IMG/VR virus record: IMGVR_UViG_3300027976_000129
Location: 1-31,528 of that record
Reading direction: 5' to 3' (one strand)
From: a virus
Length of the DNA: 31,528 bases
A program made the position numbers and the translations under genes. Of this stretch, positions 2,949 through 31,382 are shown piece after piece. The notes under the pieces were generated by a model, which worked only from the letters and a program-made list of their open reading frames with translations, did not search any database and was not told where the DNA came from. Positions within the stretch are counted from its first letter, which is position 1. Each line of letters opens with the position of its first letter.

Positions 2949-2953
2949 ACTAC

Positions 2954-2961: not shown

Positions 2962-2978
2962 GGTCAGTTTTTAGAGGC

Positions 2979-3007: not shown

Positions 3008-3027
3008 GATAACAAATTTCTGTTATG

Positions 3028-3987
3028 TTATGCTAAGGCTGATGTTGGAGTTCCCCAAGTTGTAGCCAAATATGTTGTTTCTGGATAAACTATGTCTACT
3101 CTGTGACGTAGTGTCATTGATATTGTGTCATCCCATGGAACATCTGACACATATAAGTTTATACGGAATACTACTGTTGCACCCTTGGATCCATCGGTAG
3201 TAGTAGCATCGTCTGTGAACACTGATAGTCGACCATAACTGTCAGTGTATGCGGCTGTGGTGTCAGTTACTTGGACTACGATGGTTGCACTAGTGGTGTT
3301 GTCAAAATAACCATGTGTGGTAAGATTGGTGTCTAGGGTAATGCCAGACCCAGTACGTCCACCGTTAGTTGTTTGTTTAAAGTCAACACCGCCGATGCCA
3401 GTGATCAATCGATCAACGCTCGATTCTGCTCCACTGCCTCCACCATCCACTGTTACAATTCTGTAATTTAATTGACCACCTGCGTTAAAGAAGTATCTTG
3501 CCGCTTGAGCTGAAGCAAATGTTAATTTAGCGTCATAGTTCGTTGCAATGGCTAGGCCTGTTGTCGAACTTATTGCGTCATCAAGGTTTCCGCCAGTTGT
3601 TGTTGACCCTTGTGATGCAAATGTATCTTTGTTAGTTACGACAGTATTAACTGCTGTTGCTACGTTGGCGTATGCCGCAATTGTTGCACCAGCGACTATA
3701 CCAACGTTTGAACCGTTAGCTATGGGTGTTTGGCCTTGATGGTTTAATGTTTTATTTAAATGATATACAAACCCACTCCATTGAGCGGCTGTGGCAGTTA
3801 CTCCGCCGGCTACGCTAAGGGCACTAATTGCTGACACATCCTGTCCGTAGCCATAAAGTCCGGTTCCGTGTCCCCAAACTACTGCTAGATTATTGATACT
3901 AGTAGTGTATGTTCCGCTTGTATTTCCGCCCCAGGTCAACCAGTTGTAGTCCTGCGCCTGTATTAATTCACCTGTTGTATATGCCAT
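3028..3987 (-). CDS. Tail-fibre-type virion structural protein (319 aa)
   Basis: The protein is rich in Thr, Ala, Gly and Asn, with few charged residues and no membrane segment, as in phage fibre or decoration proteins. The N-terminal region (about 1-95) contains DYNWLTWGGN, VVWGHGTGLYGYGQD and a TATAAQWSGFVYHLNKTLNHQG stretch. This is a pattern I know from structural proteins of marine myoviruses. A second region from about 160 begins with ARYFFNAGGQLNYRI, a common motif in such proteins, and continues in beta-rich sequence to the end. AGGA stands about 10 nt before the ATG. It is the last gene of the fibre block and is followed by a strong terminator. Whether it is a fibre tip, a collar or a decoration protein cannot be told. 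Confidence 0.82.
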   Translation of the reverse strand: MAYTTGELIQAQDYNWLTWGGNTSGTYTTSINNLAVVWGHGTGLYGYGQDVSAISALSVAGGVTATAAQWSGFVYHLNKTLNHQGQTPIANGSNVGIVAGATIAAYANVATAVNTVVTNKDTFASQGSTTTGGNLDDAISSTTGLAIATNYDAKLTFASAQAARYFFNAGGQLNYRIVTVDGGGSGAESSVDRLITGIGGVDFKQTTNGGRTGSGITLDTNLTTHGYFDNTTSATIVVQVTDTTAAYTDSYGRLSVFTDDATTTDGSKGATVVFRINLYVSDVPWDDTISMTLRHRVDIVYPETTYLATTWGTPTSALA

Positions 3988-9021: not shown

Positions 9022-9029
9022 TATTTATT
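9022..9029 (-). promoter_or_regulatory. Late-promoter-like box AATAAATA before fibre gene C
   Basis: The box lies in the 22-nt gap after the giant gene and 19 nt before the ATG at 9002. A leader of about 13 nt would contain an AGGA Shine-Dalgarno. The first base differs from the other boxes (A instead of G). Confidence 0.5.
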
Positions 9030-12000
9030 CTTTTATAATTACATCGTCTAAAGCTTCAGTTATGAGAGCTGACGTTCCGAGTTCTGTTGTTAATGTTCCT
9101 GCTGGTAGATCTATTAAATCTGCTTCGTGGTCAGCTGGTTGACCTTTTAAGAACAGTATTTGTACTGTTTCGCCACCACTGAATCCTGTGCCATCTGCGG
9201 CTGTTCCAGTTCCTGGATTCTGCCAGGTGGTTGATGTGACCAATGTTGTTCCGGCTAAGATAGTTCTTACGTATGCATTACCAACAGTTAAATTGCTACT
9301 TAATGTAGTAGTTCCAAATGCAGTATTTGGCACTCGCTGTGTTTTTGGAGTGCCGTCAGTAACACTACTACCATTAGGCACTATATTTGCTGTTGCAGTC
9401 CCCCAGGTACCTCTACGTATTTGTCCTATTGCGTTAGCAGAGAATATAGCTCTCACGTTGCCTGTGTCAAATACTGCGTTAGCAGAAATGGTTGCAGTAG
9501 CTACATAAACATTGCTGTCATATCTAATTACTGCACTGTCAACATAAGCAGTGTTGGCTGTCCAATCTACAACTTCAGAGGCATAGTTTCTCCAGTAAGT
9601 TATTCGTTCACCATTGATAAAGATTACACCAGGGTCGTTAAGTCCTAGATCTGGTGTAATAAGTATGTCGGTATTATTTAGAAAAATCTCAGTATCACTG
9701 CGTAACAATTCTTTAGCTGTTGTTGTGCTATAACTGTCAGCAATTCTTAAAAAATTTGTTTCACCTGATATATCAGTGAATATTCTATACCCTACAGTGG
9801 CATTAGCATTAGTATAGGTAGAGACATTTGACGTAAATACTCGCATATTTAACGTGTCAAATACAATGCCTGGCACTAGTTCTTCTGGAGCATGACTTGA
9901 CCAACGGTCAACATAGGCTCCGCCATCTACATTAATGTCTTCAGGTCTGCTACCTAACGCTGTGTCTGTGTAAGTACTGCGGATGATAGTGTCTACAGCA
10001 TTTTGGCTAAGCATCTCATTACCGTCTTCGTCATATTCAACTGCGTCAAACACTGTTGAGTCGTATGGTGTAGATAAAGAGCTTATAAAATCAACGGCTG
10101 TTGGATATACTGTTCTCCATGTGCCATCTACCCTGATGTTACCATTGCGGATTGATGTGTTGCTTAACACAAAGTCCGCTGTTGATTTAATAGTACCTTG
10201 CACTTTAACTGCTGACCATACTCTGGTTACAGATATATTAGCATCTAGCACTGGCCATTCGACTGCTGTAGTTAATGCAATAGTAGATGATATTGGTTTA
10301 ATAGAAACATTTGACCATGTACTAGTGTTGCCGGCAAATACGTTAGAAGATAGAAGAGTATCTCCATTAATGAATATATTTCCTGTAGTGTTAAAAGTAA
10401 AATCATTATTCTTAATAAAGTAGGCTGTTGCTGAACTAATTACATTGCCTTGTGTTGCACCAATGGCATTACCATACACTATAGCATTTGCACCAGTTGA
10501 TGGTTGTGTAATAAAGTCCCCAATGTTAGCTGTAAAGACACTGTAGAGTGGGTAAGCAGATGTGGAACCATCAACTGTAAAAATATGATCAGCTAAGAAG
10601 TTTAAGTACATGTCAGCTTCTGGTTGTATGATTACATTGCCTGTGTGTCCTGCTACTAATCCATGGGCTCCGCTAAATGTTACGTTAGCTAGTATTTCTC
10701 CACTGAATCCAGGTTGTTGATTAAAGTTTAATCCTTGTATCTGCACTCCTGGATATTCAATTCCAGGAATCAATTGATTTAAATCTTTTGCTGCCATGTC
10801 TGACTGCGGACTGTAATATGCCATGATTCGATCGTTGGCGTTATCAAAATCGGCCGCTGAGTAAACAGTATACTCACTGGTAACAAATGAGTTACTTGTG
10901 GTTACATTTGCTATTACTTGGTAGCCAACATTTCCGTAACTTACGATAGTGTTGGATTCAAAGAATGTATTTGTTTGCCAAGGTTGTACGGATGTACCAT
11001 AAGAGATTCTATCAAATTTCAGTGTGGTGTCAAATGTTCTTATTTTATTATTTTTTAACACAGCGTAAGCAGTTGCCGGAGTGCCTTGTTGTGTGGTTGT
11101 TGTAAACCCAAAGCTGATTGCTGTGTTAGTGAACACACTTGTGTTAGCTGTCGTCATAACTATTTTAAGATTTGCACGATCAATGTTTTCTATTATAGTG
11201 TTGGCTGTGAATGCAGTGTTGGCCGACATCCCAACAAATAACCCATTGGTCGAATTAACAGTGTATGTATTTGATATTATATTTGCATTGCCACCTATGA
11301 TAGTAACGTTACTAACTGTTGTTCCGTTGATTGTAATTGTCGGAGTTGTTACATAATCCTTGCCTTCAGTTACCACAGTTATACTAGTTACAGAACCAGT
11401 ATCTCCATTGATTGTTGCTGTGGCTGTTGCTTGTACGTTAGCCCCGCCGCCTGATATAGTTACAGTAGGTATGCTAGTATATCCACTGCCTGCATTGGTT
11501 ATAATTATGTTGTCAACAACAAAAGTTCTATTGTTATACCAATTTGGATAATCAATGTTAACCAATCCGCCATTGTTATTTAGATATCCTGTAGACCACA
11601 GTGAACTATCTTTTGCAACATACTCGCCACTCGGACTGCGGAACTGTTTTAGATCTTGATCATAATATGGTGCAAGATCAAAGTCAGTTAGATCTCCGCC
11701 AAACGAATCGTTACGAGTATAGTTTGTTAGATACTCGCGTATTTTAGTCCTGTATGGTTTTACTTCTTCTATGTAATTCTCATAGTAGGTTAAATTGTCT
11801 TTGATATAATTGGCCGGTTGACCTAACTCTCTCAAATAATGGGTTACGCTAATGAAACTTGTTTTAAATACCCAATCCACATATTGTTGCTCAGTGAATA
11901 GATAATTAATCATCACAAAGAATAGTTTATTAAACTCTCCCTGTAACTCGCCAACAAATATATCATCTCGCAGTGCATTTATGATATACCTTGTTTCGAT

Positions 12001-15000
12001 GTTTGGGCTTTGGTCAAACCTGTTTGCTTCAAATCCTTGATTACCTAAGCCAATACCGTTATCACTAAAATTACCCAAAGACTTACTTAGTTGTATGGTA
12101 CCGTTTTGTATGCCAACCGTTGCATACGTACCGTCATTGGTAACAGTTAATAAATTCCATCCGCCACCAGTAGCTGTTGTAACTTTAACTAAAACTTCAT
12201 CACCAATTGATGCAGATAATTTTAATGCATCCGGGAGAGTATCAACCACATACTCAATGACCTCATTGGCATCATACCCAGCGGCATACCAATCAACATA
12301 TGACCAATAAAGGCTAGTTTTATAACTTTGTATTTTTGCCAATGCCCAAGTGTTATCAGCTTGTAGTTCATATAGTACCCACAGGTTATCCTGCGTGGTA
12401 TCTTGCTCTACTAATACTTTATATCCAGTTAACAAATCGGATATATTAATATATGGCAACTCTACTTCTGTTGGAATAGCAATATCATATTCGCCCAATT
12501 TGATACTAGGTTTTGCCTCTTCAGAAAGCATCTGTGTTAGATCATATTGACGTGCTATAGGTTTAGTGATCAATATAGAATTAACATAAGTGACCAAATC
12601 ACCCATTGCTTTTAATCTATCACTGAATATAGTCTGTCTTGGTCGGATGTCAATCCCGTACCTATCAGCTGGGTTTAATGTAGGGTCTGGTACTGTTCTG
12701 CCATTGACGTCAATTCCAGATAGACTGTCTATCATCTTGTTAACAATCTTACTTGGGATTAGATTAACTGGGTTCCCTTGTTGTATTAATTCATACTCAC
12801 TGTGAATTAAACTTGAATTCTTTAACAGGTCATGATCAAGATGTAATATGGTATTTTGTGCTGATAGATATTCGCTAACATTATACACTATGATTGCATT
12901 GTTTTGTATAATCGCTGAGTAAGCAATTCCTTGTGATTTAGGATTGGCTATATAGTTTGCAATTGTTTGTATAGATAAATTTCTAGTTTCGTCATTACCT
13001 GTCAGGCTGGTTTTGTTAGTGACCCAGAAATAATAAACGCTTTCAATAATGTTTGATATTGGATTTACCCTAGACACCTCAACATAGTTGCTGTTATCCG
13101 CATATTTTGGTATGCCGTCATATCCAGCATCAACATATTGGCTAGGCAACACTGTGCTTTCTACCCATTCACAGATTTCTACTAGACTGCCAGGGAATAG
13201 TCTTCCCCAATTAATACTACGATATTCTAAATTACTTTGTTCATAATCAACAAAACGAACTTGTCCTAAATTCCACCAAACTTGATTTACTTGTGAATCG
13301 CTCCAATGGAAGGCAGAGTTTGCCTTTGCTCCGCGATTATAAACAGCAGGATCGTATTCAGTTTTAAAGGAAATTTCTTGATCTGCAACACCTAATATCT
13401 TACCTTTTGCAGGGTCGATGAATTCTAAATTAGTTAAGATGGTGTTGGATACTTTACTGTATAAGAACATCCTATTAACTGTGTCAACATCAACTCTAGG
13501 TTGTTCGTATCTTATAAGATTCCATCCTCGTGTCATTGCTGGGTTTGAGAATACATAGATACTTCCAGTGTCAATTCCTTGTGTGTCATCACCCGGTGCC
13601 GATACTACAATTTGTCCGCCCATTACATCTATGGCGGCCCCAAATCTATCACCTGAATTTAATCTATCAGTTGGTGTTAAAACATTACCGTCTATGTCTG
13701 GAAGATTAAGTTGCTGTGCAAATGCATACCTACCAGGATTTTCTACTTCATTACGTGGGTCATCATATAATTCATAAACATAAACACTGCCACTGCCGTT
13801 AATGTCATCTGTAAAGATTGTGCTGTCATCATCTAACGTCAATTCGCTGTCGTCAAATGTAGCGTCTGCTTTAGTAGTGCCACGTTCACTACCAATTACT
13901 AACATATAAGCATTTTGTGCCAATACTACTTTGTTACCAAAGTATTCGCCTTGGGCATTATGCGGACTTACTATGATTTGCATAAATGCAAATACTTTCA
14001 TTTCAGCATCTTGTAGAACACCATTGCTAGATCCTGACAATATTCTTAATAAGTTTTTAGCAACTGTTGAGTCTGAATCTAATTTTAAATATCCATTGGC
14101 ATTTGTTGCAGTAACTCCAAGAATGTCAGCAGTATTGATGTCATCAACTAACGAGTCTAATGTTGTTCCAGTAAGGGTTATTTCGTAGTTGTCTAAACGA
14201 ATTGTGTTACCGGGGGTAAATGTCGGGTTCAACGCTTCACCGGTGTTAGTTCCGTATAGCCTGCCCCTGTTATGGAATTTCCAAACCGCGCCTGTATTAT
14301 ATGCTGTGCCATTGTCGTAGTAAGGTGCACCTACATAGATTGCACAGTTGTTAGAACAAATAGTTAAGTCAGTGCCAAACGCCGCGCCTGTTTGTATTGC
14401 ATCGGTACCACCTGTTAGACTGTCGACTCCAATTAATTGTTCTAATAGATTGAACTGATTAGTTTCAATATAAACAACTTGTCCTAAAGCAGGCGGATTA
14501 ATAAATGTTAGGGTGGTACCACCAATGGTGGGTGGAAGGTAATCCTCAACAGTAATTCCATCAATTGACACTTTGTGTACTAAATCGATTGTTCCTGTTG
14601 TTGTGTATGTTAATGTCCCTGTACTTGCAAATGCTTCAATAACTCTGTCATATACATAAACAGCACCAGCGCCTTGTACCCACTCACCAGCTACAAAAAC
14701 ATTAGCATTGGGTGCGCCAACACCTAGTTGTGCGCCGTCAAGACTTGAATCCATTGAGGACCCAAATGCGCTACCGCTCTCTCCCTGGATGACGTTAGCT
14801 AATACATAGTAAGGTGCTTGCGTAATCACGTAAGTGTCTTGAGTTAAATTTTCTTTAAAGCTAATACTAGTTCCGCTCACTGTATAATCTAAATATGGAA
14901 TAAACGTCCTGTTTGAATTTCTGACTAATAGTGAATCAGCCGCATTAGCTACTGATGGTGTAAATGATGTTCCGATGACACTCAAATTTGATACACTATA

Positions 15001-18000
15001 AAGTGTTTCAGCATACAGTGAGGAGTCGATAGAATTAATTGATATGTTAGCCGCTACATTTCCTATGTCAAATCCAACTGCGGTGTCAACTACAATATTT
15101 GATGCCCAGCTACTTCCAATAATTGTGTTACCAGCTGATATTACTCTAGCTGTTGCTCCAGTTAATGGATACGTAACATAGTCTCCCACGAAGGCAGCAA
15201 CATTACCGTCAAGTCGTAGGGTGTTACGGTTATTAATTGATACAATATCTTGTTCTGATGATACGTGAGTGTTTAATCCGTATACATATACTCTGTCGTT
15301 TCCCGGGGCGCCTACATATAGCCATTCACCATATTCACTTAGTGATATGCTAGACCCAAATCTATCTCCGGTTGTGGTAACATCCTTGCTCCACAGTACC
15401 TGTGGCTCATTGAATGAAGTAGTTCCTGCAGGTCTATTGTAGAGATATACTAAACCAATATTTCCATAGCTACCAGGTGCACCAATGGCAACCTTCTCAA
15501 CTGCCTGATCAATACTGTGCCCAAATTCACTTGTAACCACTATTGCATTACCAGCGGCTGGCACTAAACTAGTGCCTGCTACAAGATTGCCTGCATAATT
15601 TTTATCAAATGTATTAACTCGACCAGTGGTCACTTCTGCACCACCACTATAGTACGGAACAGTATTTGCAAAGGGACTTCCTACTGTTGCTAAAAGTCCG
15701 TCATAACTAAATTTAACTGATTGGCCGTACCCATTAGTTGCATATTCAGAACTAGATTTTAATAGGGACTCTTTATAATCCCACGGTTTAGTTTTTTCGT
15801 ATACCTTCCAGCCACCACTTGGTACATCATAAGGTTGCCCTTGCGCCGTTGTGGTTTCACCGTCATTATCAATCCAAATCTTATCACCTACACGCCACCC
15901 TTGTTTAGGATCAGTTAATCCAAATACCCTAGAATCTTCCATGTATTGAAATCTTAGGCTATCTAACACAAACAACATACCAGTGCCATTGGATGTATTA
16001 AGATCGTCTAGATTGTCAGGGTTACCAAGATATTGTGCTGTAACTCTCTTAAGGTCGGGTGTCTTGTACACTTGATAGAAACCATCAAAATTAACATCAA
16101 ACCCACGTACTAAAAATATATCGTCTTTAACTAGTCCGTGCTGTCCTGATGACGTCCAAGTGACATAACCATCTAAGGCATTAGTTAATAATACTACTTG
16201 ATTGTTTGTTTCAGACACTCTATAGACATTCCATTTTCCTGTAAAGTCTTTAGCAGTCCATATTGTATATCCTGTTCCAATGACATCAGTTAAATTATCT
16301 AACGTAGAGTAGTCAGCTATGTCATATATTGTTGTATCTACGTCATCAATGTTAACATATCCAGCAGTTAAGATGTCGTTGTCATAGTTACTGTGGCTAT
16401 CTCTATTGATGGCAATATTGCCATTGAATTTAGCGCCAGACTGATCAAAGAATTTATAAAGTTGGCCTTGATTAAATGTGTCTAATCCATTACCTTCGTT
16501 AGCATTATCAGTTCCAACAAATTTTATAGTAGCTGGATTAACTGATATTGCTTTTTCGTCAAGAGCAATTTCAACATAAGGATTAGAAGTTATCGCGCCA
16601 TACTCGCCTGTGCGAATCGCCCATTCTTCATAATAATTAATATTGCTAGAAAGTGTATTAAAGTTTGCTTTAGTTAATGCATCAATCGCATTCTTTGTTC
16701 CTTTTTGTTTTATATAACCTTTATAAAATTCAATTTGTGTTGTTTCAGTTAACCCTAGGTCGTCTAGATACTGTCTTGGTTTATATCCAATTAGACCGTG
16801 ACTGTATGCCATCTGATCTTTATCGCGTATCTTGCCGTAGCTGTCATAGTAACTTTGAGACTCAACAGCAGTAGTTGAGAAGTTACTGAGCAATCCAGAT
16901 TTTATTTCTGATTTAGGTATCTGTTTCCAGGTAGTAAAATTAAATTCTGTCGTGCCGGGAACATTTTTTAAAGCTACATAATATTGCTCTTTGTATACGA
17001 TTAGGTCGCCTTTAAGATAGTCAACCCCGACTTGCCATTCTGGTACGGTTTCGTTGTTGTAAACAAATCCTGGAGCATACATGCTACCATCCCAAAGGTC
17101 TGTCTTTTGCCCAATGAGTTTTAATCTAAATTGTCTGTTGCCTAACTCAGGACGATATATCACATCATTGAACACTGTGGTGTTGTCAAAGACTAACACA
17201 TGCTCATACTGCACCAGGGCCAATTCAACCAGGGCCAATACATTGTCATCTGATAATGTAACACTAAAGTTATTAGAACTACGTGTAATCTGATATCCAG
17301 TATTTTTTACTAGATTAAAATTTTGATCTACGATTTTACTACCGTGTTGACTGTCTTCGATGCCGTCAACTATGTTACCTTGTGTTACTACTTTTATACT
17401 ATTTGTAACTGGACTTAATACCAATATGCTACCTGGTTTCCATCCTTGCTGTGCCCAGAATAAAAATTCTCTAACACTTAATTTCCAGTTACGTGTTTCA
17501 CCGAGATCACCATCTCTATCATTGAAGGTAAAGCCCTGTGCTATGAGATGTCTCTCATAACTTATAAGGAAGTCAACTACCTGCTGTATGGTCTTAAATT
17601 CATAACCGTATGGTACTGTTAATTTTACAGACTGATAGTCATTGAAGACATATCCTGTTTCGTCTTGAACCGTAATGCCATATCCATTATTATTAGCAAT
17701 ACTGGGAATGATAGTGAAGTAAGGTTTGTGTAAATCATAGCCTCGCACACTAAAGCCATTTGTTGATTTTTCAACAATTACAGCACTGTATGTTAATTTG
17801 CTAAGTGGTGTTGACTTATTCAATAAGACGTCATAGTTCTCATCTGGAATCATGATACTAGCATTGGTGCTTGTTGGTGAGCTTTGCTCTGCTAGAACCT
17901 GTAAATATTTCTTATCACTGAATCCTGCCATCTTATATGCTAATTTAACATTATAGTTTTCTAGCATTGTATTAATTTTTACTGACGGTGTTATGCCAAG

Positions 18001-21000
18001 ATTTTTTAAATAGTCAGCGATCCAATTTAGATAACCGGCGCCCCTGTTAATGACTGTTGGTAATAATGGGTCTATATAACCATTGTATACTATCTCATCC
18101 TGTCTAACATGATGATTATTAACAAATGTCAGATATTGGCGTAAGCTAGTATTGTAGCGAATATTATACGTGTCGATGAATCTGCCAAAATACACTGCTG
18201 GTTTAAGTAATGCCATAGCTTGTTGCAAGACATATGGATAATCACTACTGCTTCTCCACGCCCATTCAACTGGCCCCAATTGTCCGGTTGCCCAAGATGT
18301 TGCGGCATCTATAGAATTTGATGCTAACGCCACTACTTTCTCTGGACTTAATAAGTATCCGTTTTGATCTACTGGAATAATCTGTGACAGTCCTGGACGA
18401 GCATAGTTTGTATCTATACCAACCCCCGATCCCATGTCAACCAACGACCGCGGGCCACCGTATATTCGACCCGCTTCTAGATCATCCCACAACAGTTTGT
18501 TACCGCCTGTGTATGGTCCTGCGCCATAACGGTCTTCCCACCAATTTGGTTTTGTTGAGAAACCTAACATTTCCCATGGTCGGATATGTGGATATATGGT
18601 GTCATAGAAGTATTGATAAACTGCACGCCAACTGCCTGGCAGGTATTCGCCGTCGATGCGATCAACAAATCTTGAATAGTTCCATGTAAACGGTTCGTTA
18701 CTTTGGAATGAACTGTTAGTACTGAAATCAACTCTGTTCCTGCCAACCCAGGTCATAAACCCTTTTGATGTAACGTTCCACACCTCTGAGTAAGAATATC
18801 CAGATTCTCTGAACTTGCCTGGCATTGCAGAAAGCAATTCATTTTGATATGTATTGCTGTCTGGTAATTTAATGTTGTTGTAGATACGTTTTTCTAATTC
18901 AAGAAGCAGGGTATCTCTGTAATCACTAAATGCAGGTGTAATGCTACCGTCGTGACCACGTATCACAGTGATCGCAGTTCTATAAGTGTCATCAGTAATA
19001 ATCTCTGGCATAAACTTTGGATATGTGCCAAGTTTCGACGGAGTTTCTGGTATGTAAGAACCATCAGTATTTGCATATTCAACCATGGTTATTACGTCAC
19101 CAACAGCAAATGTCACATAATTAACATCAAAGGTAACTGCTGGCCTTGTGGCATCAAATGAGTAGTCTTTGCCTAATATTAATTGTGTGCCATTTAGGTA
19201 TACTAACACTGCTTGGTTAGTTAATGTTGTGGACGAAAATACATTTGTAATTTCATAACTAAGAACAAACGGATCAAACACACTGTATGTTATAACGTTC
19301 TTCAATGTTCCGTATGGAATCATGTCACTGTAATGCCATGGTGATGAAACATTCTTATTAATGTTTATTTGTGCAAGTATGATGTCAACGCTAGCGACAG
19401 GGTCTGACGAATCTATGCCTGGAGATGATACCGCCAACTCAAGAAACTTGTTCTTAAATTTTGCATACTCTCTCTGTGCATATTGAATTGCATCAACAAA
19501 GTTTGCTTTGTCATCTATCAGGAATAGTTCAGCATAAGGAATAGGTGCACTGTGTTGTAATATACTACCACCTTGGCCAGTGATGCTTATGTCTCTTAGA
19601 TTTGATAGCCCAAGGATGTCTCCTACTAATGCCGTGCTATTTGTTCCTAATGCCACAACGTGATTTCTAATTTGTCCAAGCGTCAATGACGTTATATCAG
19701 TATTCTGTGCATTTAGATCTAAGTTTAAAGGAACTTGATAGTATGCTTCTTTACTAATTTGATCACTATAAACTAATGCATTAATAGTATCACCTTGGAC
19801 CAACGTAGTATTCAGCGTTATCTTGTTTGTAGCTGATATAGTCCACTGTGTCTGTTTTAGTAGTTTTTGATTCTGATAAACTTTAACATAAGGAATCGTA
19901 TCTGAGAACCCATGTACATTTTGATTTTTTGGCGTAACGTCTAGTGCAAATAGATTATTTGTTCCGTCGTATTCAAATGCGAATATCTGATATTGCTTGC
20001 TAGGTTCGTTGACTGTGTGCCAAGTATTTTTAGGTGTGGTTGTCCTATTAGACTGTATAGACTGCAAGAATCCAATATTAGTACTTTTTTCTGTAACGTC
20101 TTGGTCAATCACATAATCAAACTTATCAGTATTAAAATAGTTAGAGAAAAGAATATCACCTTGACTATTAAAACTCCTATAGCTTAACGGAAAGCCTAAA
20201 ACACTGTCGTTGGTTCCTGTTGTTCCACGTTGATATCCAAATAATTTTGTTCCAACAAAACTACTGCGTGGATAATAGTCAGTGTTTGACAAACTTCTAT
20301 TATTATTATCGTAAACATCAAACAATGGATCTTGTTGTGCCGCTGTTTTTTGTTGACTTTCATTCCACTGTGTTCCGTTATACCACCAGGCACTGCCTTT
20401 GTATCTACCGGCACCAACTACTACTGAGTCCCACTCTTCCGCATCACCATCGTCTGCTTTAGTTAAGTTGATATGGAATGTGCCTTCTGGTGCACCATCT
20501 GAGTCAACTTCATATTGTACTAAATTAAGAACATATATTTTATTTTTTACCAATGGATCATTGTCGTTAGCAAATAGTACACGCATGCCATCAAACAATG
20601 TGATGCCAAATGCTGTTGTTAATGTTTTACCTTCTAGCTCTGTAAAAGCGTCTGTGATTACAGTGTCTAAAATATCAATATGCCGCTTACCAATTCGTCC
20701 ATGGTTGAATAGTTGCAGGTCACCTTCAAATTGTATTATAGGACGTTGAGCACGCAAGTCTTGTGAGAGAACTAATATCTCAGAATTGTAAGTTGCTGTG
20801 GCTTCAATGACTGCAGAGTGTACCCAGCGATTACTACGTGACCATGCATTTAGATCTAATGCGTCTCTTTTTATTGTGATATAGTCTGGAAATACTTTAT
20901 CCGGAAAAGCCTCGTAAACAGTTGTTCCTGAGGCTATGCTGTTGTGCCCACTTACTGCTTGTCCCTTATCAATGTTTGCTATTGAGTCAAGGGTAGTTAT

Positions 21001-22599
21001 CTTTGTTGACCCGATCGCTATATCGGTGTAAACTTCAATTGAGCTAGTGCCAACTGTAATTATTGTACCTCCGGGGATTATTCCTGTTGTCGACTTTGTC
21101 AGCATTACACGTTGCAACGGGTAGTTTGTTGCTACTTCGTCGTTGTACAACTCAGGGGTTACTAACAATGTTTCGTCGACTAATCTAATTGCTTCTCCAA
21201 CATTTTCTACATAGTATGTTTTTCCTTGGTATGAGGCAGGAGTAACATCATTGTCAAATTGTATTTTTAATCCACTGGTAAATTCTATACCATTGGGACT
21301 GGTATATGTAGACTCATTTAAAATATCATTGTCAACGTCAATGGTAAAATTATTAAACTCTACGATTTTAATCTTGGTGTAGATGTCTGCTCTCTCACCG
21401 TCTTGGATCCATAGCGTATCTAAGATACTGGATATAACTGGAACTGGTTCGAGGAAAGCGGTATATTCTTTGTAAAATTCTTTGTTGACATAGTTTATGC
21501 CTGACTTGACGTACACTTTATTATCAAATGGTATACTAGTTGTTGGGTATATATTAATAAGCTGATCACTACCGGAAGTAATTAGTTGTACTTCCCACAC
21601 GCCGTATCTACTTCCCTCAGGAACTATGTCCCCAAAATCAAATTCAACTGATTCACCACTATTCTCGTATGCTACTGTCCACGCATCTTCTACATTCGTT
21701 AATTGGTCCTGTAAAACAAATACTACAGTCTTACCGTCTAACTGACCAGCAAGTCCAGCAAACTGTGGAAATTCTTCTAAGAAAGAACTTAGTAATCTAT
21801 TTTGTACTTTAGAAAATGCCAACGGAAGTGCATAGTCAACAGTTGCTACTGTATTTTGTGCTAGGAATCTATCTTGGGCATCTGATTGTGGCACTGTAAA
21901 TGTTACTGTACCAACGTTAGCTCCGTTGTTTTCTACTCCCAACACCCCTCTACTACTAATTGTTGGAGTAACATTAATTAATCCATCTATGCCTAGTTCT
22001 GTTTGAATCCAAAATCCAGCTGACTGATTTACTGTAAAGGTGTATGTGCCACCTCGTGCCAATATCAATGTGTTGTTCTGTACTCCTTCAGAAGTAAAGT
22101 CATATTGATTTTGGTTATCGTTGCGAGAAACTGTATAACCTTTGATTAGTTCAACTCCACCTGTGTTTACTTGTACTGTGGATGGGCCATTAGGCAACCA
22201 ATAATATTGTCCAAAATTTACAAACTTGTCATATGACATCTGTGGGTCAAAGCTGTAGTATTCGCTGGCAAATAACCTACTGTGGTTATTAGTGTATCCA
22301 CCGTAGTAGTTAACCTTATTAAGGAAATCTAAATAACTAGCAAAGAATGTTGTTTCGTCTTTAGTATTTTTTATTACTGTAGTCGGTTCTAACTGATAGT
22401 CCTGACGTTTAGTTGTTCCTTCAGTAACATAACTATCACCTTTCTGATATGTTGGAGAAAATTGACGACCAATATAGCCATAAAGAGTTGTTAGTGATGG
22501 TTCACTAACTAGCTGGTCTACTGTAGCATTTAGAAACTTTTCGTTAACATCAGTTCTAAATACACCAGGAAGTAAATTTATGCTTTTTCTTGCGGCCAT
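9025..22599 (-). CDS. Giant baseplate/fibre-associated virion protein (4524 aa) with an FG-GAP propeller
   Basis: One open frame of 4524 codons directly follows gp6, the position of gp7 in T4; I see no sequence link to gp7. The N-terminus (SINLLPGVFRTDVNEKF, ATVDQLVSEP, GYIGRQFSP, then FVNFGQYYWLPNGP) matches a family of very large structural proteins I know from marine T4-like phages. Visible modules: a cupredoxin-like beta domain near 176-245; a conserved core near 1213-1480 (VIRGHDGSITPAFSDYRD, RPWEMLGF, PNWWEDRYGAGPY); a carbohydrate-binding-like module near 1851-1893; seven FG-GAP repeats at about 2290-3020; a conserved post-propeller region; GSGYTSIPTVTISGGG near 3700; and a second carbohydrate-binding-like module near 4343-4393. 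There is no signal peptide, membrane segment or internal stop. A weak GAGA site precedes the ATG, and no late-promoter box lies in the 29-nt gap. It is probably a large wedge-attached or host-contacting structure. Confidence 0.88.
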   Translation of the reverse strand: MAARKSINLLPGVFRTDVNEKFLNATVDQLVSEPSLTTLYGYIGRQFSPTYQKGDSYVTEGTTKRQDYQLEPTTVIKNTKDETTFFASYLDFLNKVNYYGGYTNNHSRLFASEYYSFDPQMSYDKFVNFGQYYWLPNGPSTVQVNTGGVELIKGYTVSRNDNQNQYDFTSEGVQNNTLILARGGTYTFTVNQSAGFWIQTELGIDGLINVTPTISSRGVLGVENNGANVGTVTFTVPQSDAQDRFLAQNTVATVDYALPLAFSKVQNRLLSSFLEEFPQFAGLAGQLDGKTVVFVLQDQLTNVEDAWTVAYENSGESVEFDFGDIVPEGSRYGVWEVQLITSGSDQLINIYPTTSIPFDNKVYVKSGINYVNKEFYKEYTAFLEPVPVISSILDTLWIQDGERADIYTKIKIVEFNNFTIDVDNDILNESTYTSPNGIEFTSGLKIQFDNDVTPASYQGKTYYVENVGEAIRLVDETLLVTPELYNDEVATNYPLQRVMLTKSTTGIIPGGTIITVGTSSIEVYTDIAIGSTKITTLDSIANIDKGQAVSGHNSIASGTTVYEAFPDKVFPDYITIKRDALDLNAWSRSNRWVHSAVIEATATYNSEILVLSQDLRAQRPIIQFEGDLQLFNHGRIGKRHIDILDTVITDAFTELEGKTLTTAFGITLFDGMRVLFANDNDPLVKNKIYVLNLVQYEVDSDGAPEGTFHINLTKADDGDAEEWDSVVVGAGRYKGSAWWYNGTQWNESQQKTAAQQDPLFDVYDNNNRSLSNTDYYPRSSFVGTKLFGYQRGTTGTNDSVLGFPLSYRSFNSQGDILFSNYFNTDKFDYVIDQDVTEKSTNIGFLQSIQSNRTTTPKNTWHTVNEPSKQYQIFAFEYDGTNNLFALDVTPKNQNVHGFSDTIPYVKVYQNQKLLKQTQWTISATNKITLNTTLVQGDTINALVYSDQISKEAYYQVPLNLDLNAQNTDITSLTLGQIRNHVVALGTNSTALVGDILGLSNLRDISITGQGGSILQHSAPIPYAELFLIDDKANFVDAIQYAQREYAKFKNKFLELAVSSPGIDSSDPVASVDIILAQININKNVSSPWHYSDMIPYGTLKNVITYSVFDPFVLSYEITNVFSSTTLTNQAVLVYLNGTQLILGKDYSFDATRPAVTFDVNYVTFAVGDVITMVEYANTDGSYIPETPSKLGTYPKFMPEIITDDTYRTAITVIRGHDGSITPAFSDYRDTLLLELEKRIYNNIKLPDSNTYQNELLSAMPGKFRESGYSYSEVWNVTSKGFMTWVGRNRVDFSTNSSFQSNEPFTWNYSRFVDRIDGEYLPGSWRAVYQYFYDTIYPHIRPWEMLGFSTKPNWWEDRYGAGPYTGGNKLLWDDLEAGRIYGGPRSLVDMGSGVGIDTNYARPGLSQIIPVDQNGYLLSPEKVVALASNSIDAATSWATGQLGPVEWAWRSSSDYPYVLQQAMALLKPAVYFGRFIDTYNIRYNTSLRQYLTFVNNHHVRQDEIVYNGYIDPLLPTVINRGAGYLNWIADYLKNLGITPSVKINTMLENYNVKLAYKMAGFSDKKYLQVLAEQSSPTSTNASIMIPDENYDVLLNKSTPLSKLTYSAVIVEKSTNGFSVRGYDLHKPYFTIIPSIANNNGYGITVQDETGYVFNDYQSVKLTVPYGYEFKTIQQVVDFLISYERHLIAQGFTFNDRDGDLGETRNWKLSVREFLFWAQQGWKPGSILVLSPVTNSIKVVTQGNIVDGIEDSQHGSKIVDQNFNLVKNTGYQITRSSNNFSVTLSDDNVLALVELALVQYEHVLVFDNTTVFNDVIYRPELGNRQFRLKLIGQKTDLWDGSMYAPGFVYNNETVPEWQVGVDYLKGDLIVYKEQYYVALKNVPGTTEFNFTTWKQIPKSEIKSGLLSNFSTTAVESQSYYDSYGKIRDKDQMAYSHGLIGYKPRQYLDDLGLTETTQIEFYKGYIKQKGTKNAIDALTKANFNTLSSNINYYEEWAIRTGEYGAITSNPYVEIALDEKAISVNPATIKFVGTDNANEGNGLDTFNQGQLYKFFDQSGAKFNGNIAINRDSHSNYDNDILTAGYVNIDDVDTTIYDIADYSTLDNLTDVIGTGYTIWTAKDFTGKWNVYRVSETNNQVVLLTNALDGYVTWTSSGQHGLVKDDIFLVRGFDVNFDGFYQVYKTPDLKRVTAQYLGNPDNLDDLNTSNGTGMLFVLDSLRFQYMEDSRVFGLTDPKQGWRVGDKIWIDNDGETTTAQGQPYDVPSGGWKVYEKTKPWDYKESLLKSSSEYATNGYGQSVKFSYDGLLATVGSPFANTVPYYSGGAEVTTGRVNTFDKNYAGNLVAGTSLVPAAGNAIVVTSEFGHSIDQAVEKVAIGAPGSYGNIGLVYLYNRPAGTTSFNEPQVLWSKDVTTTGDRFGSSISLSEYGEWLYVGAPGNDRVYVYGLNTHVSSEQDIVSINNRNTLRLDGNVAAFVGDYVTYPLTGATARVISAGNTIIGSSWASNIVVDTAVGFDIGNVAANISINSIDSSLYAETLYSVSNLSVIGTSFTPSVANAADSLLVRNSNRTFIPYLDYTVSGTSISFKENLTQDTYVITQAPYYVLANVIQGESGSAFGSSMDSSLDGAQLGVGAPNANVFVAGEWVQGAGAVYVYDRVIEAFASTGTLTYTTTGTIDLVHKVSIDGITVEDYLPPTIGGTTLTFINPPALGQVVYIETNQFNLLEQLIGVDSLTGGTDAIQTGAAFGTDLTICSNNCAIYVGAPYYDNGTAYNTGAVWKFHNRGRLYGTNTGEALNPTFTPGNTIRLDNYEITLTGTTLDSLVDDINTADILGVTATNANGYLKLDSDSTVAKNLLRILSGSSNGVLQDAEMKVFAFMQIIVSPHNAQGEYFGNKVVLAQNAYMLVIGSERGTTKADATFDDSELTLDDDSTIFTDDINGSGSVYVYELYDDPRNEVENPGRYAFAQQLNLPDIDGNVLTPTDRLNSGDRFGAAIDVMGGQIVVSAPGDDTQGIDTGSIYVFSNPAMTRGWNLIRYEQPRVDVDTVNRMFLYSKVSNTILTNLEFIDPAKGKILGVADQEISFKTEYDPAVYNRGAKANSAFHWSDSQVNQVWWNLGQVRFVDYEQSNLEYRSINWGRLFPGSLVEICEWVESTVLPSQYVDAGYDGIPKYADNSNYVEVSRVNPISNIIESVYYFWVTNKTSLTGNDETRNLSIQTIANYIANPKSQGIAYSAIIQNNAIIVYNVSEYLSAQNTILHLDHDLLKNSSLIHSEYELIQQGNPVNLIPSKIVNKMIDSLSGIDVNGRTVPDPTLNPADRYGIDIRPRQTIFSDRLKAMGDLVTYVNSILITKPIARQYDLTQMLSEEAKPSIKLGEYDIAIPTEVELPYINISDLLTGYKVLVEQDTTQDNLWVLYELQADNTWALAKIQSYKTSLYWSYVDWYAAGYDANEVIEYVVDTLPDALKLSASIGDEVLVKVTTATGGGWNLLTVTNDGTYATVGIQNGTIQLSKSLGNFSDNGIGLGNQGFEANRFDQSPNIETRYIINALRDDIFVGELQGEFNKLFFVMINYLFTEQQYVDWVFKTSFISVTHYLRELGQPANYIKDNLTYYENYIEEVKPYRTKIREYLTNYTRNDSFGGDLTDFDLAPYYDQDLKQFRSPSGEYVAKDSSLWSTGYLNNNGGLVNIDYPNWYNNRTFVVDNIIITNAGSGYTSIPTVTISGGGANVQATATATINGDTGSVTSITVVTEGKDYVTTPTITINGTTVSNVTIIGGNANIISNTYTVNSTNGLFVGMSANTAFTANTIIENIDRANLKIVMTTANTSVFTNTAISFGFTTTTQQGTPATAYAVLKNNKIRTFDTTLKFDRISYGTSVQPWQTNTFFESNTIVSYGNVGYQVIANVTTSNSFVTSEYTVYSAADFDNANDRIMAYYSPQSDMAAKDLNQLIPGIEYPGVQIQGLNFNQQPGFSGEILANVTFSGAHGLVAGHTGNVIIQPEADMYLNFLADHIFTVDGSTSAYPLYSVFTANIGDFITQPSTGANAIVYGNAIGATQGNVISSATAYFIKNNDFTFNTTGNIFINGDTLLSSNVFAGNTSTWSNVSIKPISSTIALTTAVEWPVLDANISVTRVWSAVKVQGTIKSTADFVLSNTSIRNGNIRVDGTWRTVYPTAVDFISSLSTPYDSTVFDAVEYDEDGNEMLSQNAVDTIIRSTYTDTALGSRPEDINVDGGAYVDRWSSHAPEELVPGIVFDTLNMRVFTSNVSTYTNANATVGYRIFTDISGETNFLRIADSYSTTTAKELLRSDTEIFLNNTDILITPDLGLNDPGVIFINGERITYWRNYASEVVDWTANTAYVDSAVIRYDSNVYVATATISANAVFDTGNVRAIFSANAIGQIRRGTWGTATANIVPNGSSVTDGTPKTQRVPNTAFGTTTLSSNLTVGNAYVRTILAGTTLVTSTTWQNPGTGTAADGTGFSGGETVQILFLKGQPADHEADLIDLPAGTLTTELGTSALITEALDDVIIKE
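9420..9570 (-). other. Carbohydrate-binding-like module near the giant protein's C-terminus
   Basis: Residues about 4343-4393 read VVDWTANTAYVDSAVIRYDS followed by NVYVATATISAN. This W..N.aY..g..V.y....Y.A pattern is that of small CBM5/12 (chitin-binding-like) domains. It is short, and the assignment rests on spacing of aromatic residues only. Confidence 0.4.
13530..15740 (-). other. Seven FG-GAP repeats forming a predicted beta-propeller
   Basis: Within the giant protein seven motifs of FG-GAP type occur in order: YGQSVKFSYDG..VGSPF (about residue 2290), FGHSIDQAVEKVAIGAPG (about 2360), FGSSISLSEYGEWLYVGAPG (about 2415), FGSSMDSSLDGAQLGVGAPN (about 2612), FGTDLTICSNNCAIYVGAPY (about 2740), FGNKVVLAQNAYMLVIGSER (about 2887) and FGAAIDVMGGQIVVSAPGDD (about 2984). 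Most are followed by G.VYVY-type strands (for example RVYVYGLN, AVYVYDR, SVYVYELYD, SIYVFSN). Seven such repeats close one integrin-alpha-like propeller. The DxDxDG calcium loops of integrins are not visible, so the repeats are nearer the bacterial FG-GAP_2 form. Confidence 0.88.
16920..17047 (-). other. Carbohydrate-binding-like module inside the giant protein
   Basis: Residues about 1851-1893 read VPEWQVGVDYLKGDLIVYKE, then QYYVALKNVPG and TTWKQIP. The order W-x(n)-Y-x-x-GD-x(n)-Y-x-A-x(n)-W is the signature spacing of CBM5/12 domains. These bind chitin or related glycans, or simply serve as structural modules in phage fibres. Confidence 0.5.
21865..22073 (-). other. Cupredoxin-like beta module without copper ligands
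   Basis: Residues about 176-245 of the giant protein contain ARGGTYTFTVNQSAGFWIQT, then GVENNGANVGTVTFTVPQ. This order (RGxTYtFxV, FwIkT, NNGxxxGtitFtVP) is that of plastocyanin-like repeats common in marine phage and bacterial surface proteins. The His and Cys residues that would bind copper are absent, so the module is most likely structural. Confidence 0.5.
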
Positions 22600-22628: not shown

Positions 22629-25600
22629 TTACGCTGTCACGGTTTGATTAAGTTGTGCGGCTGTAATAGCTGTAATAATTTGCACATTATCTACCGTGGC
22701 CGCACTTACGATAATCTCATTGTACTCTGCATTGATCTGTAAGAGACTACCAAAGGTTTCGGTTGCACTGCTTGGAACTATGGTCACACTGGCTATGTTC
22801 GGAGCCAACACGCTGTGGAGGTACGCACTTAGTTCACTGAAGTAGAATGTTTCTCCGAAGTCCCAATTGTTTAAATCAAAGTAAGTATTGATTGCCGCAA
22901 TCACACTAGTCTTCACGTTATTATCACTGACAACCACGCTAGAGTTTTTGACTACTTTAAACGTTGCCTGCAGTGCAGGTTCTGCCTTGCCACCAAAGAT
23001 AGGTTTAAACTTAGCAGGATTATATATCACTGTATCCGACACTGTCTTATAGTTCTCTAGATTGCTATAGTCTGTTCCTAAGACCTCTGGGGTAGGCGCT
23101 GTTGGTTGGACAACTGTGTTAGTTGTATCCTGCAACCAAGCAAGATAGTCTGTGGCGTAAGATTTAGTTAGTATGTACAAGTCAACAATGTTATTTGGGC
23201 TTGGATCAATACGTCTATTATTTGGACTGCTGTGTCTATATTGGAAGTATATGTCTTGTCTTCCTACCTTAGCAGTATATCCAGTAACCACAGACACTGT
23301 ATAAACTGCGCCACTGATTGCTAATTGATAGAACTTGTCAGTACTTGGAATATAAAATAATTGTCCATGTTGATAAAGAGTTTTTGCAGTTTCAAGGGCA
23401 ACAAGAGAATTATATGTACTAACTACTAAACTGTTGCTCACTGACGTTTGTATAACAAAATTATCGTAGCCATAGGTATTTTGGAAATAGACATATTTCT
23501 GAGCTGTTAAGGTAGTAGGACTTACCAGTATTTCAAATAGTTCTGGATTGTCTGGAACACCATCATCGTTTGAATCAGGGAATGTAACTAATACTTTATT
23601 GGGATTAGAATACCCATCTGTTTCGACAACATTGTCATAAATGTGCCATTGGTATTCTAATGCCAATGGGTTAGAATCATCTGGGTTTGTATTCATTTTT
23701 AATACATTGATCTGATCACGTATGGTAAATCCTGTTCGTGGGTCGTATATTTTAACGGCTTCGTCAAAATAGAAATTAGTTTCTCTGACACTTTCAAATA
23801 CGTATTGGAGCCCTCTATAATAGACTGAATATGTTTGCCCCACTGTTTGGAATCTAATTAACCAACTAGAATCAAGACCAGCTGAACTAGTATTGCCTGC
23901 GGCTGACAGATTAAACGCACCGTTGTTCATATTTTCCGGTGTTATTATAGTCCAGGCTGATGTGGTTACATCGTAGCGCAGACCAAAGTCTTTGAATGCT
24001 TGTATATAGTCAACCATACTGGTAGTCACAGCAGTAGTTAATGTATTATTAAATACTGGAAATACCCGGATAGCCTCTGCACCTGTTGGAACAATCTGAT
24101 TTAATGTTATTGGGCCACTGCCATTGGCTAAATTACCTTCACCACCATTGGTTCCATCTGCTAAGACCTCAATGATTTCAGCATAGATATAATACTTGTC
24201 TCCGGCGTTGTTTGGCGTTCCGGTTTTAATTGTGTTTTGTGCATCAAAATATTTGCCTGCGCCTGCGGAGAATTTTACAATAGAGCCTTGTTTAACATAT
24301 TTTTTACTGTCACTAACATAATGGCCAACTTGTAATATGTTGTCAGTAGCATCATAAAAATATCCAGTAATGCCTGTATCATCTAATGCCTTATTCCAAT
24401 ACGTGTTTGTCACACCAATTTGTGCATAATTAGAATAGAAGAACTGTAATGTATCTTTTTTCTTAAGTAATGATATAATCTGATTAGTAATTACTTTGTA
24501 GATGTCACTGGTAGTAACAAAACTAAAACTAAATGTGTCAGTGATCTCATCCTTGTACAATATACCATCCTGGCAGAATATGTTCGTGCTAGAATATTTT
24601 CCAGTGCTGTCAATGACGTCTAGATATCTACTGATACCGCTCGATGTCCTATTAACCCCTTTAACTTTCAACACGCTGTTGAATAACGTGTAAGGCAATA
24701 TGTTATAGTCCTCGCCTGTTACCATGCGATCTTGTGTGTAGTATTGTTGTGGTGCTTTTTGTCGTACCTCTTCAACAGTTTCGCGTGCTGTTGCATTGGT
24801 TACAGTATATCGTAAGCTAGCACGGATATTAACAGTCTCTATCCTTCCCGCTTTACTAACATAATTTATAGGTATAACTATTCCACGCATTTCGTCGGGT
24901 GATATTTTGTAGCTTAATCCGTTGCTGGTCCTGTAGTACAATCTAAATCTACCTTGTGGCATTGTTGCAAAACTTCCATCGCCAAATATCAAATCAATTT
25001 GATCGCCTGCACGTGTGTTTACTTGATAGATGTTCTTGTTAGTGCTAGTGTTGTAAATGATATTTGTAGCGCCAACACTAGGTACTGGTGTCCATAGTGT
25101 GTCAATATTACCATTTGAATCTAATTTGTATAACCAAACATCTGAATTATTAATGTTGTCAACGTTTACGTTGTATGCTCTATTAGGGAGACTTTCTTGG
25201 AAGTTGATGTCTATACTTTTTAGTCCGCCTTGTTTAAAGTACATGAAGAATCCGGTATTGTTACTGCCATTACCTAGATTGTCATTCTTGTACAATATGT
25301 TGAAACTGCTAGTTGGCCTTGGCGCGACTTCATAGATATAAGATTGGCCTGCTGATGTTGGGCTTACCATTTCAAATGATGTCTGTGACCCTTCAATGGC
25401 GGCACTAAACGCATAGGTAGCTGTTATGTTTGGTACTAGATTAATCTGATATTCTTCATTTAGTATGCTATTGATTAATTTACTGTTGCTTGGCTTGCCT
25501 ATTGACTGTGTTGTGTTAAGACTACTATTAATCACTGCATTAAATTGTTCTTGCCAATTATCGTTTGCACTGTCTGCCCAATTGATCACTAATCCTGATA

Positions 25601-26009
25601 GGTTAAGACCATTGCTGTCGTAAACTGTTTCTGTAGTACTAACTGAATCAATCTTAAGCAGGCCATTGGCTGGAATATTACGTTTGGGATTGTAGCTGAT
25701 TAGACGTGCTAGTTTTAATACTGAGTCACGGCGCTGTGCGGTGTCAATGAAGTTTTCACGTGCATTTAGATCTCCTCTAAATGCTAGACTTTGTCCTAAG
25801 AAACTTAATAGGTCAATTAGAGCGATAAACTCACTTGATTCAATGAAGTCGTTAAAGTCTTCAGGATAGTATAAGCGGAGATAGTCCACCATGCTCTTTC
25901 TTAGAGTCTCATAGTCATAGCTTTGGAAATCAGCATTGCGGAAGGTCTGATATAGTTTAGTCCAATCTTCAGCGACTAGTAAACTGCTTTGTCTTGTGGT
26001 AATTGCCAT
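22629..26009 (-). CDS. gp6: Baseplate wedge protein gp6, enlarged (1126 aa)
   Basis: gp6 forms the inner ring of the T4-type baseplate wedge and changes shape during tail contraction. The N-terminus is diagnostic: DFQSYDYETLRKSMVDYLR, YYPEDFNDFIESSEFIALID, LLSFLGQSLAFRGDLNAREN, then TAQRRDSVLKLARLISYNPK (residues about 28-110). The C-terminus (FGETFYFSELSAYLHSVLAP, SVTIVPSS, FGSLLQINAEYNEIIVSAAT) matches the conserved dimerisation-type end of gp6 proteins. T4 gp6 is about 660 residues, so some 450 residues are extra. They lie mainly in the middle (about 500-950), which is rich in YVKQGSIVKFSAGAGKYF-like beta segments. AGGGA lies about 9 nt before the ATG and a GATAAATA box 21 nt upstream. The gene sits between gp25 and the giant gene, consistent with wedge assembly. 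Confidence 0.95.
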   Translation of the reverse strand: MAITTRQSSLLVAEDWTKLYQTFRNADFQSYDYETLRKSMVDYLRLYYPEDFNDFIESSEFIALIDLLSFLGQSLAFRGDLNARENFIDTAQRRDSVLKLARLISYNPKRNIPANGLLKIDSVSTTETVYDSNGLNLSGLVINWADSANDNWQEQFNAVINSSLNTTQSIGKPSNSKLINSILNEEYQINLVPNITATYAFSAAIEGSQTSFEMVSPTSAGQSYIYEVAPRPTSSFNILYKNDNLGNGSNNTGFFMYFKQGGLKSIDINFQESLPNRAYNVNVDNINNSDVWLYKLDSNGNIDTLWTPVPSVGATNIIYNTSTNKNIYQVNTRAGDQIDLIFGDGSFATMPQGRFRLYYRTSNGLSYKISPDEMRGIVIPINYVSKAGRIETVNIRASLRYTVTNATARETVEEVRQKAPQQYYTQDRMVTGEDYNILPYTLFNSVLKVKGVNRTSSGISRYLDVIDSTGKYSSTNIFCQDGILYKDEITDTFSFSFVTTSDIYKVITNQIISLLKKKDTLQFFYSNYAQIGVTNTYWNKALDDTGITGYFYDATDNILQVGHYVSDSKKYVKQGSIVKFSAGAGKYFDAQNTIKTGTPNNAGDKYYIYAEIIEVLADGTNGGEGNLANGSGPITLNQIVPTGAEAIRVFPVFNNTLTTAVTTSMVDYIQAFKDFGLRYDVTTSAWTIITPENMNNGAFNLSAAGNTSSAGLDSSWLIRFQTVGQTYSVYYRGLQYVFESVRETNFYFDEAVKIYDPRTGFTIRDQINVLKMNTNPDDSNPLALEYQWHIYDNVVETDGYSNPNKVLVTFPDSNDDGVPDNPELFEILVSPTTLTAQKYVYFQNTYGYDNFVIQTSVSNSLVVSTYNSLVALETAKTLYQHGQLFYIPSTDKFYQLAISGAVYTVSVVTGYTAKVGRQDIYFQYRHSSPNNRRIDPSPNNIVDLYILTKSYATDYLAWLQDTTNTVVQPTAPTPEVLGTDYSNLENYKTVSDTVIYNPAKFKPIFGGKAEPALQATFKVVKNSSVVVSDNNVKTSVIAAINTYFDLNNWDFGETFYFSELSAYLHSVLAPNIASVTIVPSSATETFGSLLQINAEYNEIIVSAATVDNVQIITAITAAQLNQTVTA

Positions 26010-26061: not shown

Positions 26062-26442
26062 TTATACGGCAGTTAGGGTACTATTTTGATTGTCAAATTG
26101 TAGATTCATTACATTAGTCTGATTTGTTAATACGTAGCGTAATTCTAGTTCAACTTGTATGCCTTGTGCATATTCTGTCACCACTACATTGTCTATGCTT
26201 AGCCTGGGATCGTAGCTGGCTACTGTTTTAATATCGGTAACTATGACACTTTTTAAATCTTCTGTTAAGGGTTCGTGCACCACGTTCCAGATGATGGTGC
26301 CAAAATCGGGATTCATTAATTTCTCACCTTTGCGGATGTAGAAATGATTGATCAGATCCTGTTTGATTAACTCAAAATCCGTGAGGCGGAATTTGCGATT
26401 GCGCCCTACTGTTGAAAATCCTCTGTACATGATACTAGCCAT
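26062..26442 (-). CDS. gp25: Baseplate wedge protein gp25 (126 aa)
   Basis: This is the GPW/gp25 family, a small wedge protein conserved in all contractile injection systems (TssE in type VI secretion). It attaches the sheath to the baseplate by offering a handshake strand. The sequence has the expected core: DFELIKQDLINHFYIRKGEK (22-41), LMNPDFGTIIWNVVHEPLTE (42-61) with E57-P58-L59 in place of the EPR motif, then DPRLSIDNVVV and a beta-strand tail. Length is normal for the family. The ATG at 26442 lies 5 nt from a GATAAATA box; the only Shine-Dalgarno-like AGGA sits rather far (11 nt) and overlaps the box. The upstream gene's stop codon is inside that box. Confidence 0.97.
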   Translation of the reverse strand: MASIMYRGFSTVGRNRKFRLTDFELIKQDLINHFYIRKGEKLMNPDFGTIIWNVVHEPLTEDLKSVIVTDIKTVASYDPRLSIDNVVVTEYAQGIQVELELRYVLTNQTNVMNLQFDNQNSTLTAV

Positions 26443-26447
26443 AGTAA

Positions 26448-26455
26448 TATTTATC
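26448..26455 (-). promoter_or_regulatory. Late-promoter-like box GATAAATA before gp25
   Basis: The TAA stop of the gp5-like gene is part of this octamer, and the box stands 5 nt from the gp25 ATG at 26442. The same spacing occurs before the genes starting at 2948 and 7562. Because A-GGA lies in its first half, it may instead or also act as a ribosome-binding site. Confidence 0.5.
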
Positions 26456-31076: not shown

Positions 31077-31382
31077 TTATAACCCTAACGCTGTGGTTAG
31101 AGTATCCTTTTTTGGAATGTATATGGTTGCTCCTGGCAAGAAGTCATAGATTGGATCTTGTAGTATGTTAGGATTGCGAATAGAAAAAACCCACCAAAGA
31201 GAACTGTCACCGTATAAGTCATATGCCAATAGATCGGGTCTATGATTATAGATGTTGTCGATACGATACTGCACATCACTAGGATCTTTTGGTATCGAGG
31301 GTATGTTTGCCACATCTAAAAAGAATGAGAATGTCTCAGTGTTTACATACGGACTAGTCTTGCTGTAGTTCGCCGCCGCCAT
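31077..31382 (-). CDS. gp53: Baseplate wedge protein gp53 (101 aa)
   Basis: gp53 is a small wedge protein that joins neighbouring wedges around the hub of the T4-type baseplate. The diagnostic segment is RPDLLAYDLYGDSSLWWVFS (residues 48-67) followed by IRNPN, DPIYDFLPGATIYIP and a short tail. It is a LysM-like fold in which a length-setting YGD..WW core is nearly invariant. The N-terminal NTETFSFFLDVANIPSIP and DVQYRIDNIY are also usual. At about 100 residues it is shorter than the T4 protein (about 196) but has the whole core. GGAGG lies about 9 nt before the ATG, and the start overlaps the stop of the upstream gene (TAATG), so translation is probably coupled. Confidence 0.93.
   Translation of the reverse strand: MAAANYSKTSPYVNTETFSFFLDVANIPSIPKDPSDVQYRIDNIYNHRPDLLAYDLYGDSSLWWVFSIRNPNILQDPIYDFLPGATIYIPKKDTLTTALGL

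Follow-up and report, generated by a model that had tools for sequence, protein, structure and literature searches.

A giant virion-type protein, encoded by a virus that is a relative of the jumbo phages, contains a region that is predicted, with good confidence, to fold as one closed seven-bladed β-propeller of the FG-GAP/integrin α type. The stretch of DNA analysed (the window) comprises positions 1–31,528 of IMGVR_UViG_3300027976_000129, i.e., 31,528 nucleotides, and residue numbers refer to the 4,524-amino-acid open reading frame (ORF). The propeller probably provides the tail with a platform for binding or docking. The giant baseplate-adjacent proteins of jumbo-type phages are mostly annotated just as “virion structural protein”; one such giant now has a domain of definite predicted fold, whose borders are exact and for which a relative offers a natural empty site. 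The role of the domain is thus open to testing by its precise removal.

The giant gene lies in a baseplate cluster, the setting that had been proposed from the sequence, with gp6-, gp25-, gp5- and gp53-like genes upstream:

9025..22599, minus strand: giant virion-type ORF, 4,524 amino acids, propeller-bearing, a single open frame
22629..26009, minus strand: baseplate wedge (gp6-like) gene, directly upstream of the giant (phrog_10646, E 3.7e-302)
26062..26442, minus strand: gp25-like baseplate wedge gene (phrog_43 “baseplate wedge subunit”; gp25 name via the GAP32 gene order)
26451..28505, minus strand: gp5-like baseplate hub and tail lysozyme gene (phrog_27932, phrog_13211)
31077..31382, minus strand: gp53-like baseplate wedge gene (phrog_7145 “baseplate wedge subunit”; gp53 name from the gene order of Vibrio phage 2.275.O)

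The same baseplate gene order is found in Cronobacter phage GAP32 and Vibrio phage 2.275.O. The giant ORF matches phrog_10938 “virion structural protein” with 1177 bits, and its homologue in PA5oct, gp355, is annotated as found by ESI-MS/MS. From the gene order, together with the virion mass spectrometry of homologues, we infer that the giant is physically located in the baseplate. Its gene follows gp6 directly, which is where gene 7 lies in T4. However, sequence homology between the giant and T4 gp7 was not detected (hhalign probabilities ≤0.3% for all segments), and identity as a T4 gp7 homologue was dropped despite the matching gene position. Downstream of the giant are three tail-fibre-like genes (4035–5483, 5522–6883 and 7578–9002), which have phrog_6427, phrog_22593 and phrog_15511 in common and look like paralogues of one another.

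The propeller and its seven repeats, the latter located by a motif scan and the alignment of relatives, are as follows:

13534..15789, minus strand: seven-bladed FG-GAP/integrin-α-type β-propeller, residues about 2271–3022 (AlphaFold2 and VIA-align)
15673..15729, minus strand: FG-GAP repeat 1, residues 2291–2309
15475..15525, minus strand: FG-GAP repeat 2, residues 2359–2375
15304..15360, minus strand: FG-GAP repeat 3, residues 2414–2432
14710..14766, minus strand: FG-GAP repeat 4, residues 2612–2630, with a partial DxSxDG
14323..14379, minus strand: FG-GAP repeat 5, residues 2741–2759, with TICSNNC
13885..13941, minus strand: FG-GAP repeat 6, residues 2887–2905
13594..13644, minus strand: FG-GAP repeat 7, residues 2986–3002, the best Pfam FG-GAP_2 stretch

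The earlier note had described seven FG-GAP motifs in order in this region (13530–15740), about 55 to 200 residues apart and mostly followed by a G-x-VYVY strand, and this description holds. There are exactly seven FG..GAP motifs, at residues 2291 (where the letters are YGQSVKFSYDGLLATVGSP), 2359, 2414, 2612, 2741, 2887 (..VIGSE) and 2986 (..VVSAP); they all fall within the interval given in the note, and the rest of the 4,524-amino-acid protein has no such motif. When the protein was shuffled 2,000 times, 1,978 shuffles had no motif, 22 had one, and none had more. The spacings are 68, 55, 198, 129, 146 and 99 residues, and a G-x-(V/I) strand follows six of the seven motifs, the third being followed by VYVY without the G. 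All seven positions are retained in 51 sequences of 51–100% identity. The calcium loop of integrins (DxDxDGxxD), which the note had found to be missing, occurs in none of the seven repeats in any of the 51 sequences; a partial DxSxDG occurs in repeat 4 alone, in 26/51. A DxDxDG calcium site was accordingly dropped as a candidate, the partial form being present in repeat 4 at most. In the TICSNNC loop of blade 5, cysteines 2748 and 2752 are invariant (51/51 sequences).

The Pfam family FG-GAP_2 (PF14312) matches the propeller region with E 1.7e-16 and is significant in 15/15 aligned relatives, whereas PF01839, the calcium-type FG-GAP family, has no match in the window. At least six individually significant repeats had been anticipated from a profile search; only two single stretches of the region pass FG-GAP_2 individually, so it is structure prediction and conservation that settle the fold instead. 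A family sequence profile reaches integrin α-4 (E 4.9e-6) and integrin α-V (E 2.9e-4), and a profile was needed because the single-sequence search of solved structures found nothing. Alignment A2 of relatives was too diverged and was not used for scanning.

AlphaFold2 gave a pLDDT of 72 and a pTM of 0.74 with 15 sequences, and a pLDDT of 80.3 and a pTM of 0.81 with 40. The latter model has 28 strands, arranged as seven four-stranded blades: blades 1–6 have four strands each, and blade 7 comprises three strands at model positions 741–769 together with the N-terminal strand at 25–30. In VIA-align, integrins are the top matches (in an earlier comparison, Z 28.4 with 374 residues aligned at 2.6 Å), and the alignment to integrin α-M has Z 31.3 over 357 residues at 2.6 Å, the integrin alignments spanning model positions 22–779. 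WD40 and designed seven-bladed propellers tie the integrins in Z, but with fewer residues aligned (about 285); thus, the fold by itself does not distinguish integrins from these. Foldseek TM-scores are low (0.13–0.36 on the query), which we attribute to the inserts. Separate β-sandwiches were dropped as a candidate, as two models show one ring and the relatives keep seven repeats. The closed integrin-type ring that had been predicted by counting motifs is therefore what the structure prediction returned.

The uneven spacing of the motifs is due to inserted domains, located in the 3-4 loop of each of blades 3, 4 and 5, in keeping with the suggestion of inserts within blades. These inserts and one further loop are:

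14812..15270, minus strand: blade 3 3-4 loop insert, residues 2444–2596 (between model strands 187–194 and 348–356)
14479..14625, minus strand: blade 4 3-4 loop insert, residues 2659–2707 (from the model strands)
13993..14268, minus strand: blade 5 3-4 loop insert, helix included, residues 2778–2869 (from the model)
13792..13887, minus strand: blade 6 2-3 loop with an acidic T.FD..T.FD..T-type motif, residues 2905–2936 (pattern count)

Across relatives, the length of the insert ranges from 71 to 248 amino acids in blade 3, from 47 to 529 in blade 4 and from 91 to 275 in blade 5. The relative L148, which is without large inserts, has its seven repeats in about 460 amino acids (read by eye), and the diverged L194 has seven repeats too (one read by eye). 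The strict T.FD pattern of the blade 6 loop is found in 59 of 113 unique propeller ORFs, where shuffles lead one to expect 0.3, and a T.FD-type motif persists in propellers that are too diverged for the family profile; this acidic loop is a possible metal or ligand site.

A segment of the blade 3 insert (residues 2452–2530) recurs at residues 4019–4099 (window 10303–10545; E 1.3e-6), which points to a mobile module within the giant. Such mobility would fit a propeller that is structural filler, i.e., mobile β modules that enlarge the baseplate without having a specific ligand, as would the finding that the giant of Atu_ph07 holds about 1,500 amino acids of other sequence at the same site. We consider this highly unlikely: the seven repeats survive deep divergence and blade 5 is nearly invariant, which argues for a maintained function. 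The sequence in the Atu_ph07 giant (L107, residues about 1655–3180, at the propeller position) contains GYTSTPSVSVIGGQG-type repeats.

The borders of the domain are marked by two strands that flank it:

15793..15810, minus strand: stalk strand 1, WKVYEK, residues 2264–2269 (model strand 15–20; conservation 0.99)
13501..13524, minus strand: stalk strand 2, WNLIRYEQ, residues 3026–3033 (model strand 777–784; conservation 0.85)

The order in the window is WKVYEK, the propeller, then WNLIRYEQPRVDVD (the W.NLIRYEQPRVD side). The propeller-less contig L246 has the empty site, reading WKVYQKYGVWFEYRSENKKVD at the same place, with WKVYQK and WFEYRSEN as the counterparts of the stalk strands. The hairpin (WKVYEK..W.LIRYEQ) that holds the ring in the window is kept as a short turn in propeller-less relatives, laboratory phages among them.

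Whether the propeller is present in all or only some homologues of the giant, as raised in the earlier note, has a divided answer. In the best 80 relatives by the neighbouring C-terminal segment, the loci being fetched by that segment and not by the propeller, propeller-like sequence lies upstream in 80/80; in contrast, the propeller was not detected in PA5oct, Atu_ph07, GAP32, SCTP-2, Vibrio phage 2.275.O or contig L246. The propeller flanks are conserved in the five named phages. In a tree of the C-terminal segment, in which carriers were labelled by a relaxed motif count, these six non-carriers fall on one side of a branch with support of 100/98, recovered in 100% of bootstraps; the root and the long branches limit what this tree can say on gain versus loss. 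The propeller carriers found are all metagenomic. The core of the giant matches 60 cultured phage records, and the propeller was detected in none of these; tblastn of the window's propeller against 50,697 phage records gave no match at 1e-5, and queries with the insert-free L148 and the diverged L194 gave weak FG-GAP proteins only, e.g. in S-TIM5 and Phosso. In Sinorhizobium phage Phosso (L250), the weak FG-GAP matches are to gene 108, an 11-kb ORF away from the giant gene.

Two further loci concern the propeller site. In L182 and L184 (4286–6763), about 2.4 kb with a 520-amino-acid ORF divides the giant gene in two at this site. An apparent split of the gene at the propeller in L162 (6763–6796) was dropped, because its two frames overlap by 34 bases within the propeller, which makes a sequencing or assembly frameshift likelier.

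The most conserved parts are the stalk (0.91), the 1-2 loops of blades 4, 5 and 6 (0.89, 1.0 and 0.89) and the 3-4 loop of blade 6 (0.90); the 2-3 loop of blade 1 (0.40) and the blade 3 insert (0.46) are the least conserved. We read this pattern as that of a docked side versus an exposed side; fold constraints could be an alternative cause of the conservation in blades 4–6. The propeller was probably gained in a single event, in which it was inserted at the turn of a β-hairpin (WKVYEK, WNLIRYEQ) whose strands would have become the propeller stalk, with the chain entering and leaving where blade 7 has its 3-4 loop. The stalk would most likely pack on the rest of the baseplate together with the 1-2 and 3-4 loops of blades 4–6, which are conserved, and blades 1–3, the length-variable loops and the inserted domains would, judging from strand order rather than coordinates, face outward. 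This outward side would bind a ligand, for which a glycan on the host surface is the most likely candidate. To this explanation as a whole, a pendant propeller that was acquired once, is docked on the baseplate and binds a ligand with its variable side, we give an even chance of being correct. Glycan binding fits with the CBM5/12-like matches found within the propeller-bearing stretch of the relatives L206, L232 and L237; for the propeller in the window itself, there is no match to a CBM. Counting against the adhesin reading, the downstream tail-fibre-like genes, rather than the propeller, may carry out host recognition.

The same conservation could belong to a wedge-to-fibre joint, in which the propeller is a structural hub and what attaches to its blades and inserts would be tail fibres or adjacent wedge proteins, not host molecules. 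The giant adjoins gp6 in the baseplate cluster, the stalk and blades 4–6 are very conserved, and a precedent is the nozzle propeller of SU10, in which, as described in PMC9509320, Ig-like domains are inserted and a loop docks the fibre. However, the propeller went undetected in PA5oct, GAP32, Atu_ph07 and others of the same gene order and is therefore not needed for the shared baseplate plan, and blades 1–3 are strongly variable. A joint is thus a possible role, but one that we are inclined to doubt.

A bound glycan might also be degraded. Many propellers are enzymes. The propeller of the phi11 receptor-binding protein (RBP) resembles enzymes most (PMC4901313), and a glycan-degrading domain acting against capsule or wall could be envisaged here too. 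Since Pfam finds FG-GAP repeats only on the region, with no hydrolase or lyase family, and the best structural matches are integrins, this is very improbable. Returning to the pendant, ligand-binding propeller, it can be extended to a whole lineage of mostly uncultured large phages with an exchangeable adhesion platform that was gained once, diversified by swapping of loop domains and had the conserved acidic T.FD loop of blade 6, as a new metal or ligand site, in place of the integrin calcium loops; this wider scenario appears rather unlikely.

Propellers on phage tails are already known; in the open-licence PMC literature, no earlier report was found of an integrin-type FG-GAP propeller encoded within the baseplate cluster of a phage. 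The giants of PA5oct, Atu_ph07, GAP32 and SCTP-2 are homologous to that of the window and, in the annotated cases (PA5oct, Atu_ph07 and GAP32), have gp6 immediately upstream, but differ in that the propeller was not detected. In comparison with the Pfam family FG-GAP_2, the repeats here are inside a giant phage virion protein, and two of them score individually. The likeness to integrin α (α-V, α-4, α-M) comprises seven FG-GAP blades, an N-terminal strand that completes the last blade, a Z of about 30 across some 370 residues, and detectable sequence similarity, whereas the giant's propeller is without the calcium loop, has large 3-4 loop inserts in blades 3–5, and belongs to a phage protein for which no partner β-subunit was seen; Pfam matches on the whole 4,524-amino-acid protein include no thigh- or calf-type integrin domains. 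Cyanophage S-TIM5 F417_gp054 is likewise a virion protein with an FG-GAP-type propeller, from a cultured phage, but is about 407 amino acids long and encoded by a separate gene, outside any giant protein. Gp131C of the Pseudomonas myophage PhiKZ (PDB 4GBF) has, according to PMC4901313, a seven-bladed propeller at the baseplate periphery and is a suspected receptor binder; likened here by description, it differs in that its propeller is a C-terminal domain. The phi11 RBP (Gp45) and PRD1 P2 have propellers in host-recognition proteins (PMC4901313), but these are five-bladed and the proteins are dedicated to receptor binding. The SU10 nozzle has a seven-bladed propeller core, Ig-like insertions and a docking site for fibres, but belongs to a short-tailed phage and lines the tail channel, no FG-GAP repeats being reported in the available part of its description (PMC9509320). 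As these phage-tail precedents cover both, adhesion and fibre docking are both candidate roles for the propeller of the giant.
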